A DNA stretch of 5,391 bases from contig JAKAXG010000355.1 in NCBI GenBank assembly GCA_021827225.1, forward strand, positions 1 through 5,391. The letters run 5' to 3'. The DNA is from Actinomycetes bacterium. GTDB lineage: Bacteria; Actinomycetota; Acidimicrobiia; Acidimicrobiales; Palsa-688. Below are positions 1,180 to 5,391 of this stretch, piece after piece; within the stretch, counting starts at the first letter, position 1, and each line of letters opens with the position of its first letter. Below the pieces are notes generated by a model. It was not told the origin of the DNA. It did not search any database and saw only the letters and a list, made by a program, of their open reading frames with translations. Position numbers and translations under genes: made by a program.

Positions 1180-1404
1180 TCAGAGATCAGCGATCTCTGG
1201 GTCCTCGGCTGCGACGACATCCGCCAGCCGGCGGTAATCACCCGAGCCGACCAAATCGAGGATCGCCTGTCGCGTGTCTTCGCTGAAGGGCGACTGGTAA
1301 GGCTCGACGATCGGGGGCCGCAGCGCACCGGTATCGGCCATCCGGGCACGCGTGCGCTCGACCAGTTCACGGAGCTGAGGGTCCAGTTTCAGTTGAACGC
1401 TCAC
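1180..1404 (-). CDS. Putative antitoxin, 74 residues
   Basis: This small leftward gene lies directly upstream of the PIN-like gene. From a GTG start at 1404 it gives 74 residues: an N-terminal strand and helix (VQLKLDPQLRELVERTRARM, residues 3-22), a proline-containing middle (ALRPPIVEPYQSPF, 27-40) and an acidic C-terminal helical part ending ADVVAAEDPEIADL. A DNA- or partner-binding N-terminus with an acidic tail is common among type II antitoxins, but I do not recognise the family and the function is inferred mainly from size and gene order. The frame stays open upstream to 1818, but that extension runs antisense through the tRNA-Cys fragment and repeats and has poor protein character, so I end the gene at the GTG. 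A TACCCT box six bases upstream suggests a leaderless mRNA. Confidence 0.6.
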   Translation of the reverse strand: MSVQLKLDPQLRELVERTRARMADTGALRPPIVEPYQSPFSEDTRQAILDLVGSGDYRRLADVVAAEDPEIADL

Positions 1405-1410
1405 GCCATC

Positions 1411-1416
1411 AGGGTA
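1411..1416 (-). promoter_or_regulatory. Probable -10 box (TACCCT) of the toxin-antitoxin operon
   Basis: On the minus strand TACCCT fits the TAnnnT pattern of actinobacterial -10 boxes and ends six bases before the GTG at 1404. That places the transcription start on or next to the start codon, which agrees with the lack of a ribosome site. I see no good -35 box 16-18 bases upstream. Confidence 0.4.
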
Positions 1417-1919: not shown

Positions 1920-2282
1920 ATGATGGCCGACCACCGACTGGACCTGGCAGAGGCACTCCTCGCCAAAGCCCGCTCGACCTCGTTCGAGGGGGAGCGGCAG
2001 TCCTTCGTGGCCGGCGCCCATCACCAGCTCAGCGCCTTCCTCGGGTCGGATGCGCCGGTCCAGCGCCGCCCGGGGGAGCGAGCCGGTGCCGCTCCCGCCC
2101 TGGCCCGGCGCCCGGCCGCGTCCCTGAGCGCACCGGAGGTACCGGCCGCGCAGGAGACTCCAGCCCCGTCCGAGCCCGAGGCCGAGCCCGTGCTGGTCGT
2201 GGACCTGGCCGCCGCCGAGCGGGCGTACCGCTCCCACTCCGGGCGGGCCGTACCGGGCGTGCTGGTCGACCTGGCCATCTGA
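1920..2282 (+). CDS. Small protein with DUF2786-like N-terminus and Pro/Ala-rich linker
   Basis: The protein has 120 residues. Residues 8-41 (LDLAEALLAKARSTSFEGER and the next dozen, ending HHQLSAFL) follow the pattern of DUF2786, a short helical domain of unknown function usually seen as 'LLAKAESTxFPEEAEAFxAKAQELM'. Residues 42-90 are a low-complexity Pro/Ala/Glu linker, probably disordered. The last 30 residues return to an ordered pattern (VLVVDLAAAERAYRSHSGRA, then VPGVLVDLAI) that may be a second conserved element. There is no signal peptide or membrane segment, so it is probably cytoplasmic. Two ATG codons are adjacent (1920 and 1923); a GGGGA ten bases before the first favours 1920, while TAACTA at 1911-1916 would fit a leaderless start at 1923. 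It stands alone, 125 bp before the next gene. The function is unknown, and the DUF2786 match is by eye. Confidence 0.75.
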   Translation: MMADHRLDLAEALLAKARSTSFEGERQSFVAGAHHQLSAFLGSDAPVQRRPGERAGAAPALARRPAASLSAPEVPAAQETPAPSEPEAEPVLVVDLAAAERAYRSHSGRAVPGVLVDLAI

Positions 2283-2407: not shown

Positions 2408-3085
2408 ATGGAACACGAAGACAACCCGTATCGCGACCCCGCCCAGCCGGTCGGGCCCCCCTCTGCGCCGCCCACCCGGTGGCGGGTACCGCGAGTTGCC
2501 CTGGCCGTCGGCCTGGCCGGAGTGCTGGGCCTGGCCGGCGCCGGCGTGGCGTTCGCCGTCACCGGTCCGAGCGGCCGGCCCGCATCGGCGGGATCAATGA
2601 TGTCGGGCGGGTCTTTGATGTCGGGCACCAGCTCCACCTCCACCCCGGCCGTTCCCGCCGCCCCGCCGGCCGGCCGCCACGGCATGGGCCGGTTCGGTCC
2701 CGGGGGCGGCCCCGGCCTCATGGGGGGCGGCATGGTGCACGGCGTGTTCACCGTCAGGAACGGAACCGGCTACCGGGTGGTGGAGGTGCAGACCGGCGTG
2801 GTGCAGCCCGGCAACACGTCCGCTTCGCTCACCGTGAAGAGCGACGACGGGTACTCCCAGAGCTACACGGTCCAACCGTCGACGGTCGTCAACTCGCAGG
2901 CCGGCGGGATCTCGACGGTGAAATCCGGCGACCGGGTACGGGTGCAGGCCGTCCAGCAGGGGAGCGGCTACACCGCCACCGACGTGATCGACATGACCCA
3001 GATCGGCTCCAGCCACCAGGGCTTCGGGTTCGACCCGCCGGGGCCGCCGGCTGGGGCCGGGACCGGATCGGCGCCGGCCGCCTGA
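2408..3085 (+). CDS. Membrane-anchored protein with Met/Gly-rich linker and DUF5666-like extracytoplasmic domain
   Basis: The 225-residue protein has a cytoplasmic N-terminus rich in proline (1-28), one membrane-spanning segment (about 29-52, an Ala/Gly/Val/Leu helix ending GVAFAVTG), a low-complexity outer linker (53-110), a beta-rich domain (about 111-198) and a short Gly/Pro/Ala tail. No clear signal peptidase site follows the hydrophobic segment, so it is probably an anchored protein rather than a secreted one. The domain, HGVFTVRNGTGYRVVEVQTG, then SLTVKSDDGYSQSYTV, VVNSQAGGISTVKSGDRVRV and ATDVIDMT, has the repeated short strands typical of DUF5666-like proteins of actinobacteria, whose role is unknown. 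The linker has clusters of methionine with glycine, serine and histidine (M64, M65, M71, M93, M105, M109, H91, H111), which might bind a metal but may simply be low complexity. It converges on the citrate synthase, with 114 bp between the stops. Confidence 0.85.
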   Translation: MEHEDNPYRDPAQPVGPPSAPPTRWRVPRVALAVGLAGVLGLAGAGVAFAVTGPSGRPASAGSMMSGGSLMSGTSSTSTPAVPAAPPAGRHGMGRFGPGGGPGLMGGGMVHGVFTVRNGTGYRVVEVQTGVVQPGNTSASLTVKSDDGYSQSYTVQPSTVVNSQAGGISTVKSGDRVRVQAVQQGSGYTATDVIDMTQIGSSHQGFGFDPPGPPAGAGTGSAPAA

Positions 3086-3175: not shown

Positions 3176-3205
3176 AGCTGACCGGCGGGCCCCGGCCGGT
3201 CAGCT
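3176..3205. terminator. Perfect 11-bp-stem hairpin, likely bidirectional terminator overlapping a stop codon
   Basis: AGCTGACCGGC (3176-3186) pairs perfectly with GCCGGTCAGCT (3195-3205) across an 8-base loop GGGCCCCG. It lies between two convergent genes, where a bidirectional terminator is expected. The right arm contains the citrate synthase stop codon (TGA, complement of 3200-3202), so for that gene the hairpin begins inside the coding end. As is common in actinobacteria there is no T-run. Confidence 0.6.
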
Positions 3206-4375
3206 GGCGGGGGGTTCGGGGACCGGCACCGGCGCCGGGGCCCCGACGTAGCGGGCGGCCGGGCGGATGATCTGGCGCTGGTCGGCCTGCTCGGCCACGT
3301 TGGCACACCAGCCGATTACCCGGCTGACGGCGAACGTCGGGGTGAACATCTCCCGGGGCAGCCCGCAGGCGTCCATGACCACGCCGGCGTAGTACTCCAC
3401 GTTGGCGTACAGGGGCCGGCCCGGTCGCAACTCGGCCAGCACCCGCAGGATGGTCTTCTCGACCTCCACGGCCAAATCTGCCAGGTCGCCGCCGAGACCG
3501 GTGGCGACTCCCCGCAGCATCACCGAGCGGGGGTCGTCGGTCCGGTACACGGCGTGCCCGAAGCCCATGATCCGCTCACCCCGGGCCAGCATCTCGCGGA
3601 TGTGGGCCTCAGCCCGCTCGGGCCGGCCGATGGCGTCAAGGGTGTCGAGCGCCCGGCTGGGGGCTCCGCCGTGGAGCGGCCCGGACAGGGCGCCGAGAGC
3701 CCCCACCACGGCGGCCGCAGCGTCCGCCCCGGTCGACGCGATCACCCTGGCGGCGAAGGTCGACGAGTTGAACCCGTGGTCCACCGTGAGCATCAGGTAC
3801 TGCTCCAGCGCCCGGGCCCGCTGCGGGTCGGGGCGGTCACCGGTGACCATCCACAGGTAGTTGGCGGCGTGGCCGAGGGCCGGATCCGGCGGCACCGGCT
3901 CCTCACCGCGGCCCAGCCGGTACAGGGCGGCCACCAGGACCGGGGTCACGGCCGCCAGGGCGAGAAGGTCCCTGCGCCGTTCCGGCCGCTGCAGGTCCCA
4001 GACGGGGCGCATGCCCATCGCCGAGCCGTACAGCGACAGGGCCGACCTCAGCCCGTCCAGGGGACCACCGGAGGCCGAGGCCCGGGCCACGCCGGGTAGG
4101 AGCTCGGCCACGGCCGGCGGCACGGTGCGGGCGGCGGCGATCTCGGCCGCGAAGTCCGCCGCCTCGGCGACGGTTCCGGGTAGGGCACCGTCGAAGAGCA
4201 GCCTCCACACGTCCTCGAGGCTCCGGCCGGCCGCCAGATCCACCGCCGAGTACTGGCGGTAGTGGTAGAAGCCCTCCATCCCCCGGACGTCGCCGATGGT
4301 GGTGTCGGTCACCTGCACGCCCTTCAGTCCGGGCGGTACGGCCGGGGAAGGGCTGAGAACTTCGGTGGTGGTCAT
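3200..4375 (-). CDS. Citrate synthase (citrate/2-methylcitrate synthase family, CitA-like)
   Basis: Citrate synthase condenses acetyl-CoA with oxaloacetate to citrate, the entry step of the TCA cycle, in the cytoplasm; relatives use propionyl-CoA to make 2-methylcitrate. The 391 residues are a normal length. Visible family motifs are the N-terminal hairpin GFYHYRQYSAVDLA (35-48), the oxaloacetate site VDHGFNSSTFAAR (H200), the catalytic SGPLHGGA (H235) and GFGHAVYRTDDPR (H274), and a C-terminal VSRVIGWCANVAEQ and IIRPAARYVG. The third catalytic position is NVEYYAG with Glu327, where E. coli GltA has an Asp in NVDFYSG; I believe Glu occurs in some actinobacterial paralogs, so I still expect activity. 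The ATG at 4375 has no strong ribosome site; CAAGAT six bases upstream and TTGATC 17 bases before that fit a leaderless promoter. It is divergent from an HTH-citrate synthase fusion only 44 bp away, which is probably its regulator or partner. Citrate versus methylcitrate activity cannot be decided from sequence alone. Confidence 0.95.
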   Translation of the reverse strand: MTTTEVLSPSPAVPPGLKGVQVTDTTIGDVRGMEGFYHYRQYSAVDLAAGRSLEDVWRLLFDGALPGTVAEAADFAAEIAAARTVPPAVAELLPGVARASASGGPLDGLRSALSLYGSAMGMRPVWDLQRPERRRDLLALAAVTPVLVAALYRLGRGEEPVPPDPALGHAANYLWMVTGDRPDPQRARALEQYLMLTVDHGFNSSTFAARVIASTGADAAAAVVGALGALSGPLHGGAPSRALDTLDAIGRPERAEAHIREMLARGERIMGFGHAVYRTDDPRSVMLRGVATGLGGDLADLAVEVEKTILRVLAELRPGRPLYANVEYYAGVVMDACGLPREMFTPTFAVSRVIGWCANVAEQADQRQIIRPAARYVGAPAPVPVPEPPAS

Positions 4376-4381
4376 GTCCGC

Positions 4382-4410
4382 ATCTTGACGCAGCCCTGTG
4401 TATTGATCAA
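4382..4410 (-). promoter_or_regulatory. Predicted leaderless promoter of the citrate synthase
   Basis: On the minus strand TTGATC (4405-4410) is a -35 match of four out of six. It is followed by a 17-base spacer and CAAGAT (4382-4387) as the -10, then six bases and the ATG at 4375. The expected transcription start falls on the start codon. The -10 match is only moderate, so the evidence is the spacing and its symmetry with the promoter on the other strand. Confidence 0.4.
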
Positions 4411-4413
4411 TCT
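4385..4413 (+). promoter_or_regulatory. Predicted leaderless promoter of the HTH-citrate synthase gene
   Basis: TTGACG (4385-4390) matches the -35 consensus in five of six positions. A 17-base spacer leads to CAATCT (4408-4413), a weak -10, and six bases later comes the GTG at 4420. It overlaps the opposite promoter almost completely: each -35 overlaps the other's -10. Two polymerases could not bind both at once. Confidence 0.4.
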
Positions 4414-4429
4414 TGATTTGTGATCAATC
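4403..4429. repeat. TTGATCAATC direct repeat, candidate operator in the divergent promoter
   Basis: TTGATCAATC (4403-4412) and GTGATCAATC (4420-4429) share GATCAATC with a 17-bp period, and a partial copy TTGAT lies between them at 4413-4417. TTGATCAA (4403-4410) is itself a palindrome, and the outer arms also form an imperfect inverted repeat. This is an AT-rich island in very GC-rich surroundings. The first copy covers the -35 of one predicted promoter and the -10 of the other; the second covers the GTG start. It is a natural binding site for the HTH protein encoded right next to it, though this is inferred from position. Confidence 0.5.
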
Positions 4430-5391
4430 AGCGCCTGACCACGGCCGAGACGGCGGCCCGGCTGGGGGTGAAGCCGGCGACGGTCTACGCCTACGTGAGC
4501 CGGGGCCTGCTGCACCCCGAACGGGGTCCCCGGGGGAGCACCTTCGACCGTCACGAGGTGGCGCTCCTGGCCCGCTCGGCCCGCCACCCCGGCGAGGGAT
4601 CGCCGGGCCGCCGGACCGGGCGGGAACCGGGGGCCGGCACCGCTCCGGCCGGAGGCCCGGCCGGCGAGCCCATCTTCGTGACCGAGCTCACGCTGATCGC
4701 CGGCGGGGGGCTGTACTACCGGGGTCGGCACGCCACGGACCTGGCCGCCCGGTGGAGCTTCGAGCAGGCGGCCGAATGGCTGTGGACCGGGGCGGAGAAG
4801 CCGGCCGGCTGGTCCTGGGCGGCCCCGTCCGATCCGGGGGACCGGGTAGCGGCCGCCGTTGCCGGCCTGGGCCCCGAGGTGCTCCCGGTGGAGCGGCTGA
4901 TGGTGGCCACGGTGGCGGCGGCACTCGGCGACGACCTGCGCCACGACCTGGACCCCAGCCGGGTCCCGGCGACCGGCCGCCGGCTGCTGGGCGTCCTGGC
5001 CGCCGCCCTGCCCCTCGCCGGCCTCCCACCGGGCCGGCCGGGGCACCCGGGAATGGCCGAACTGTCCTGGCGGGGTCTCACCCGGCGCCGGCCGGCCGGG
5101 GCGGACCTGGCCGCCACCGGCGCCGCCCTGGTCCTGGCCGCCGACCACGAGCTGGCCCCGTCCACCCTGGCTGTCCGGGTGGCGGCCTCCTTCCGGGCCG
5201 ACCCCTACGCCGTGGTCCTGACCGGTCTGGGGCCCTCCGCCGGCAGCTGGCCGGCGGGCAGCACCGGCGCCCCGGGGGAGGTGGAGGCGCTGCTCGAGCG
5301 GGCCGCCGACACCGGTCCCGAGCGGGCCATAGGCGAGCACCTGCGCCGCTCCGGACAGGTTCCGCACGGCTTCGGCATGCCCCTCTACCCG
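4420..5391 (+). CDS. HTH-citrate synthase fusion with altered catalytic histidines (partial, C-terminus outside window)
   Basis: 324 residues are visible and the frame is open at the window end. Residues 6-51 are a MerR/BldC-like winged HTH: LTTAETAARLGVKPATVYAY then VSRGLL and a wing ending FDRHEVALLA. A Gly/Pro/Arg linker follows (55-82), then a citrate synthase domain starting with the hairpin EPIFVTELTLIAGGGLYYRG (83-102). Helices resembling the family follow, up to the oxaloacetate-site motif ADHELAPSTLAVRV (H243 kept, Asn replaced by Ala246). Beyond that it diverges: the usual SGPLHGGA is replaced by WPAGSTGA, with Ser281 in the catalytic His place, and the usual GFGH is GFGM (Met320). 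Loss of both histidines argues against normal citrate synthase activity. A ligand-sensing regulator or a non-catalytic subunit is more likely. The GTG start is the only one that keeps the whole HTH; it has no ribosome site and fits a leaderless promoter. It is divergent from an intact citrate synthase. Confidence 0.9.
   Translation, partial: MINQRLTTAETAARLGVKPATVYAYVSRGLLHPERGPRGSTFDRHEVALLARSARHPGEGSPGRRTGREPGAGTAPAGGPAGEPIFVTELTLIAGGGLYYRGRHATDLAARWSFEQAAEWLWTGAEKPAGWSWAAPSDPGDRVAAAVAGLGPEVLPVERLMVATVAAALGDDLRHDLDPSRVPATGRRLLGVLAAALPLAGLPPGRPGHPGMAELSWRGLTRRRPAGADLAATGAALVLAADHELAPSTLAVRVAASFRADPYAVVLTGLGPSAGSWPAGSTGAPGEVEALLERAADTGPERAIGEHLRRSGQVPHGFGMPLYP

Follow-up and report, generated by a model that had tools for sequence, protein, structure and literature searches.

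A gene at the end of the 5,391-nucleotide stretch of actinobacterial DNA analysed here (the window) encodes a citrate synthase (CS) domain with a helix-turn-helix (HTH) head. As judged from its sequence, the protein, HTH-CS, is very probably a DNA-binding regulator derived from citrate synthase and kept under purifying selection. It is likely to act as a one-component transcription factor of local reach, working at its own divergent promoter, with the CS fold sensing a CS-type ligand. Only 44 bp separate the gene from an ordinary citrate synthase gene on the other strand, an arrangement that an earlier note on this DNA did not record, and a candidate operator lies in this gap and runs into the HTH-CS start codon (Table 1).

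Table 1. Features of the window. "Listed" refers to the best 120 of 2465 homologs, and "rows" to the 356-row HTH-CS table unless a clade is named.
Feature	Position	Strand	Remarks
Partner: an ordinary citrate synthase (391 aa) that has GPLHGGA and GFGH	3200..4375	-	PF00285, E 9.7e-106
Divergent intergenic region, 44 bp, between both start codons	4376..4419	.	
TTGACG, possible HTH-CS promoter -35, or extra half-site	4385..4390	+	TTGA in 9/9 aligned loci
Core palindrome ATCAATCTTGAT	4406..4417	+	
Composite operator (putative) TCAATCTTGATTTGTGATCAA	4407..4427	+	overlaps start codon; conserved in relatives
HTH-citrate synthase (HTH-CS) gene	4420..5391	+	GTG start; 324 codons; 3' end past the window
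MerR/BldC-like HTH, residues 6-51	4435..4572	+	HTH_17 and MerR_1 over cutoffs
Citrate synthase (CS) domain, residues 82-323, cut by window end	4663..5388	+	
His243, kept; matches His229 of E. coli GltA, which binds oxaloacetate	5146..5148	+	120/120 listed; 356/356 rows
Pro278 at the catalytic His264 position, weakly constrained	5251..5253	+	entropy percentile 88 within the domain (window clade)
His316, inserted residue of HGFGM	5365..5367	+	117/120 listed; gap in 173/174 canonical HTH-CS
Met320 replacing catalytic His305	5377..5379	+	120/120 listed; 140/140 rows of the window clade, which was picked partly by this residue

The earlier note had described a MerR/BldC-like HTH fused to a CS domain, and this architecture was recovered by Pfam matches above their cutoffs. 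The CS domain is matched by Citrate_synt (E 2.4e-19), and the head by HTH_17 (28.1 bits, cutoff 27) and MerR_1 (residues 7-51, 26.3 bits, cutoff 21.6). It is MerR_1 that identifies the head as a MerR-type winged HTH; PF00376 stays under its cutoff (24.2 against 28.2), as does the NCBIfam profile HTH_BldC (15 bits, cutoff 77). The complete gene is represented by P0001, a relative of 427 aa in the public record (ENA) that is 99% identical to the window protein. The HTH residues Y23, Y25, S27, R28 and G29 are kept in all of the best 120 of 2465 homologs, and the N-terminus, Met-Ile-Asn, shows its Ile 91 times and its Asn 96 times in the same 120. The structure model predicts a CS fold for the window protein.

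The divergent partner carries Glu327 at the position of the catalytic Asp. This was dismissed as an oddity, since B. subtilis citrate synthase (2c6x) also aligns with a Glu. A divergent CS match is found upstream of HTH-CS in 44 of 58 loci (the window and the loci outside the proteobacterial L012-L019, counted together; in part from the class and phylum of G006), with a few matches partial or several hundred bases off. Such company would suit a regulatory subunit, whose dead CS domain pairs with the partner CS in mixed dimers and senses not a free metabolite but the partner itself, through its amount or substrate load. In known citrate synthases the R407-type Arg reaches across the dimer, and its counterpart is kept in 355 of the 356 rows of the HTH-CS table (made up of 291 proteins and 65 locus rows; some genes are entered twice, one of them as L008 and P0121). 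However, the family has members without a CS neighbour, for example beside TctC or oxygenase genes, and we consider mixed dimers unlikely.

The residue numbers and roles used for the CS domain are those of the E. coli enzyme (H229, H264, H305, R314, Asp362, Arg387 and R407), which were mapped by alignment. The earlier note had read the His of GFGH as Met320 and the oxaloacetate-side His243 as kept, and both readings hold without exception in the alignment of the best 120 of 2465 homologs. Its reading of the other catalytic His stands in part: the His of GPLHGGA is indeed lost, the column being non-His in 110 of these 120, but it aligns with Pro278 and not with Ser281. The column is variable (R/Y/Q/P and others) and is followed by a three-residue insertion; seven of the 10 proteins with His in this column carry the insertion, and three (P0076, P0091 and P0112) do not. 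The third acid, the catalytic Asp, lies beyond the window and is retained as Asp367 of P0001 and in 120 of the best 120 homologs, as is the Arg of DPR, and the counterpart of Arg387 is Lys in 117 of them. What the window protein shares with a catalytic citrate synthase is the fold, the counterparts of the oxaloacetate-binding His229, Arg314 and Arg407 and, to go by P0001, that of Asp362; the counterparts of His264 and His305 are both missing.

Relatives of this protein are numerous. A search at E<=0.001 returned 2465 related proteins, in which the HTH need not be present beyond the best 120; the homolog listings give the best 120 of 2465, 1353 and 4926 for hand-chosen queries. Among 296 genomes of the class, 39 have a match at E<=1e-15; in 20 of these the match reaches the HTH, in two more it does so in pieces, and in 17 it covers the CS domain only. 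At the level of the phylum 39 of 396 genomes were matched (E<=1e-40), as were 17 of 300 genomes (E<=1e-25) from the order to which G666, a Rhodoferax record, belongs. From the loci, 68 HTH-CS-type proteins were taken; the partial L020, L049 and L073 were omitted from the 356-row table, L052-L060 were unused as weak, partial or CS-domain-only matches, and L021-L031 duplicate other loci. L003 comes from a record titled Acidobacteriota, but shares 94% identity in its HTH-CS with L004, an Actinomycetes record, which may reflect an error of binning or naming.

The oxaloacetate-binding His229, Arg314 and Arg407 have counterparts in 356, 356 and 355 of the 356 rows, respectively. The residues of catalysis are distributed differently, with shares that describe the collected rows and not natural frequencies: H264, H305, the Asp and Arg387 are all present in 174 rows, H305 alone of these is absent in 28, and both His are gone with Lys at the Arg387 position in 132, to which eight more rows of that clade add a His at the free column. 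The double loss of His is a feature of one HTH-CS branch. Because nearly half of the rows keep the catalytic residues, sensing by HTH-CS need not require catalytic loss.

A quick tree built from 96 of the 357 aligned rows and rooted on one distant row suggests an order for these events. Rows with H264 and without H305 surround the canonical rows and the window clade and also fall between the two, and H305 was therefore probably lost first. The label of the window branch takes two changes on the tree because P0076, P0091 and P0112, which have no insertion, nest inside it. The proteobacterial loci L012-L019 group apart from these with full support, and in them His264 is replaced by Thr or Ser and the Asp by Ala or Ser, while His305 is retained; to judge by the tree, this is an independent route of residue loss. 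Further losses are seen on the long branches of L044, L045 and L048. A stepwise loss, in which the residues that would hold the substrate stay and those of the chemistry go, fits the tree.

A rival reading sees the protein as a trigger enzyme, whose rearranged site, with His316 in place of His305, would still catalyse condensation or cleavage alongside DNA binding. His316 could in principle replace a lost His, and it precedes GFGM in 117 of the best 120 of 2465 homologs and in 137 of the 140 rows of the window clade, in which Asp367, Arg329, Arg411 and Arg413 are invariant. The relatives with all scored catalytic residues may also be active. Against this, the His264 position is among the less constrained of the domain, and its loop is poorly ordered in the predicted model: the block with the lost His has a mean pLDDT of 43 in the window protein and 75 in a canonical relative, where the whole models average 82 and 89. 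Moreover, all 140 rows of the window clade have Lys at the Arg387 position; the clade was picked partly by this residue and by Met at the His305 position, but Lys also stands there in 117 of 120 in the list that was not selected in this way (best 120 of 2465). Catalysis by such a site appears quite improbable.

The candidate operator was first spotted by eye and tested afterwards. Its general form is TCAANNTTGAT, then 3-8 bases, then ATCAA or GTCAA. The window has one composite match, and 200 shuffles gave none. The third half-site of this match coincides with codons 2-3 of HTH-CS (ATC AAT), which agrees with the Met-Ile-Asn N-terminus of the homologs. The sequence GATCAATATTGATCA stands immediately 5' of the ATG in L001-L005 and L008, and L006, L032 and the window are 1-3 bases off it; the first divergent ORF begins 44 bp from the HTH-CS start in the window, L001-L005, L008 and L032. 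With an HTH plus CS domain and an upstream TCAANNTTGAT core, the window has both marks by which the family was recognised.

The motif is also rare elsewhere in the genome. The 12-mer ATCAATATTGAT occurs in exactly one place per genome in 10 of 10 genomes (2.7-11.8 Mb), always at HTH-CS; since it was chosen from those loci, the informative part is its absence from the rest of the genome. In 48 genomes, hand-chosen among those known to carry HTH-CS, the composite pattern TCAANNTTGATN{3,7}ATCAA has 33 places in 33 genomes, 32 of them at the HTH-CS locus; the exact composite is absent in the other 15, and the reversed pattern had no match in the 48. Within 250 bp upstream of HTH-CS, the composite (<=1 mismatch) is found at 48 of the 58 loci and the core at 46, compared with 11 and 12, respectively, of 9923 control windows, which were drawn from the same loci and are mostly coding. 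The composite is missing even with one mismatch at 10 of the 58, including L066 and L067, where HTH-CS is kept with a CobW-like neighbour (by eye) and there is neither an upstream CS nor an operator. The sole composite match away from HTH-CS in the 48 genomes, at G007:C4:54516-54537, is a possible second target.

In Proteobacteria, the core is upstream in seven of the eight loci L012-L019, and ATCAAYATTGAT is single-place in seven of these eight genomes, at HTH-CS in six and elsewhere in one. In 24 further proteobacterial loci (L090-L113), the exact core is upstream in 14 and absent in 10; a recognisable HTH was not found in one of the 24, L105. Overall, the link between the motif and the gene is well supported by these counts, and the motif is almost exclusive to HTH-CS genes, though not present on every member.

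The neighbours of HTH-CS vary more than the motif does. In L009-L011 (Nonomuraea), the divergent gene is homocitrate synthase-like in place of CS, and the operator core is present; the L011 protein matches TIGR02660 with 235 bits, under the cutoff of 462.9, and those of L009 and L010 were assigned by likeness. This gene may encode a Re-type citrate synthase or a homocitrate synthase, enzymes whose fold is unrelated to that of CS and whose reaction is related. L012 has a TctC receptor, an aldehyde dehydrogenase and a Rieske oxygenase as neighbours (Pfam); the same set was recognised by sequence likeness in L015, L017 and L018, and its first two members in L014, and the core is present at all five loci. 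HTH-CS faces a CoA-transferase of family III in L096 and L101 (Pfam) and, by eye, in L099, L100 and L102; the core is again present, and the scored catalytic residues are intact in all of them. HTH-CS genes on named plasmids are annotated as citrate synthase. Those of Massilia and Acidovorax adjoin Rieske/ring-hydroxylating genes and have no core; that of Paraburkholderia is near a gene of this type, and that of Chelatococcus stands beside a divergent citrate synthase. Among the 10 proteobacterial loci without the exact core are L110 and L111, which lie on plasmids next to oxygenase genes, and in L112 an aldolase and a cupin adjoin HTH-CS, with a ring-hydroxylating gene further off.

The proteins of L012, L014, L015, L017, L018 and L110-L112 are without His264 and the Asp (Ala, Glu or Phe stands instead), and are likely regulators that have been misannotated, as citrate synthase where an annotation exists. 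That Proteobacteria lost other residues and have other neighbours suggests a retuning of the pocket in this group. Because the core recurs beside quite different neighbours, the site appears to follow the HTH-CS gene.

This bears on whether the motif belongs to another regulator, which would control HTH-CS. MtrA is a candidate, as the available part of one report places it at the sco5831-sco5832 intergenic region of Streptomyces coelicolor (PMC12323332). However, the MtrA consensus (GTAACC repeats) and the site given in that part, TTGACTTAACTGTCCA, are unlike the motif (PMC12323332), and TCAANNTTGAT accompanies HTH-CS in more than one phylum and beside different neighbours, and is close to unique within a genome. 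Ownership of the motif by another regulator is very unlikely.

Selection on the gene is also evident. Three HTH-CS pairs gave dN/dS values of 0.17, 0.25 and 0.18, which points to selection and not decay as the source of the loss pattern, and in the CS domain of the window clade 55 of 335 columns are invariant over 140 rows. The earlier note had allowed for a decaying pseudogene, here of an HTH-CS enzyme, and although two catalytic His are lost, these values and the conserved HTH residues leave that reading with hardly any credence.

The preferred reading, that of a local regulator built from citrate synthase, can be set out as a mechanism. The fusion, the pattern of residue loss, the purifying selection and the near-exclusive motif are results of computation; from them we infer DNA binding at the motif, the direction of control, the ligand, the dimer and the domain closure. 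Known citrate synthases are dimers, and a CS dimer would set the two N-terminal MerR/BldC-like heads on the TTGAT/ATCAA half-sites of the 44-bp promoter. HTH-CS would repress or tune its own gene, as the putative site covers the start codon, and would control the divergent, catalytically intact CS gene. With the two catalytic His lost and the residues for the oxaloacetate/citrate carboxylates retained, the active site may have become a sensor pocket, for which a di- or tricarboxylate or an acyl-CoA is the candidate ligand. Closure of the CS domains on the ligand would be the likely switch, altering the grip on DNA.

The sigma-70 consensus scan of 4300-4500, on both strands, found no promoter, and the geometry of operator and promoter is for this reason proposed only provisionally. 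The TTGACG of Table 1 might serve in a promoter, and a reading by eye that places TTGAC-N17-CAATNT 6 bp before the start codon would suit leaderless transcripts. A tRNA scan found none.

The earlier note had proposed a regulator that measures flux into the TCA cycle. A DNA-binding regulator that retains the binding residues and lacks catalytic ones agrees with the present results. As the operator, where found, is nearly always at one place per genome, the protein looks more like a local switch for the adjacent CS gene than a general flux sensor. A genome-wide TCA regulon was likewise judged unlikely, the motif being essentially single-copy where it is found. On a wider scale, it seems somewhat probable that CS-built regulators, many of them annotated as the enzyme, form a cross-phylum group with one DNA code (the TCAANNTTGAT core) and rewired targets, in which catalysis gave way to sensing at least twice, through loss of different catalytic residues and with the binding residues fixed. 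Candidates for rewired targets are citrate synthase, the homocitrate synthase-like gene, CoA-transferase, and the operons of tricarboxylate-binding proteins and oxygenases.

Several known systems resemble HTH-CS in part. Citrate and 2-methylcitrate synthases (PF00285; PDB 1a59, 3hwk and 6s6f) share the whole fold and the oxaloacetate-side His, Arg and Asp, whereas the window protein is without both catalytic His, has Lys for Arg387, and carries two insertions and the N-terminal HTH. Proteins annotated as "citrate synthase (family protein)" in Actinomycetota and Proteobacteria have the same architecture as HTH-CS, and often the same core and a divergent metabolic gene; they differ from the window protein where the catalytic residues are kept, as in the 174 rows, or where His264 and the Asp are lost and His305 is not, as in L012-L019. 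MerR/BldC-type regulators have the HTH fold in common with HTH-CS, which bears a CS domain instead of the MerR effector domain. The operator of MerR lies between -35 and -10, with a long spacer. The putative operator here overlaps the start codon, in a region where the scan found no sigma-70 consensus. MocR/GabR regulators are an HTH fused to an aminotransferase fold. HTH-CS would resemble them in reusing a complete enzyme fold as a sensor and in acting on a local divergent target; the fold differs, and HTH-CS is not a member of that group.

A further related case is the pair SCO5831/SCO5832 (citA3/citA4) of S. coelicolor, a species credited with four citrate synthase genes (PMC12323332). The available part of that source calls both genes putative citrate synthases and places an MtrA site in their intergenic region, and excerpts of others call SCO5831 citrate synthase-like and report a higher abundance with phosphate (PMC9739823, PMC8981147). 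Like the window pair, they are putative CS genes with a shared intergenic region, and they are probably the same kind of pair, set alongside here by description; in these partial sources they appear only as putative or citrate synthase-like, tied to MtrA or phosphate. In the literature searched, with most subscription papers and preprints lying outside it, no description of HTH-CS as a regulator was found. One source, once among the listed matches, names an Acidiferrimicrobium HTH-CS "MerR family transcriptional regulator", so annotation has already noticed the HTH. HTH-CS regulators are apparently a widespread, undescribed family.

If the proposed role is true, citrate synthase joins a small set of enzyme folds that have been reused whole as transcription-factor sensors. 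Living lineages with both His, with one lost and with both lost make the path from enzyme to sensor testable, and a concrete candidate operator, nearly always with a single target where it is found, makes binding, ligand and regulation testable together. It would also mean that regulators are hidden among the genes called "citrate synthase", with consequences for TCA reconstructions, as for the four such genes ascribed to S. coelicolor, and for how oxygenase operons are annotated.

Elsewhere in the window, adjacent small ORFs at 730-1161 and 1180-1413 (-) have by eye the look of a PIN-type toxin and antitoxin, and a Pfam scan of the ORFs 730-1161 and 1180-1818 gave no match. The ORFs at 2408-3085 (+) and 1920-2282 (+) have weak, below-cutoff matches to DUF5666 and DUF2786.
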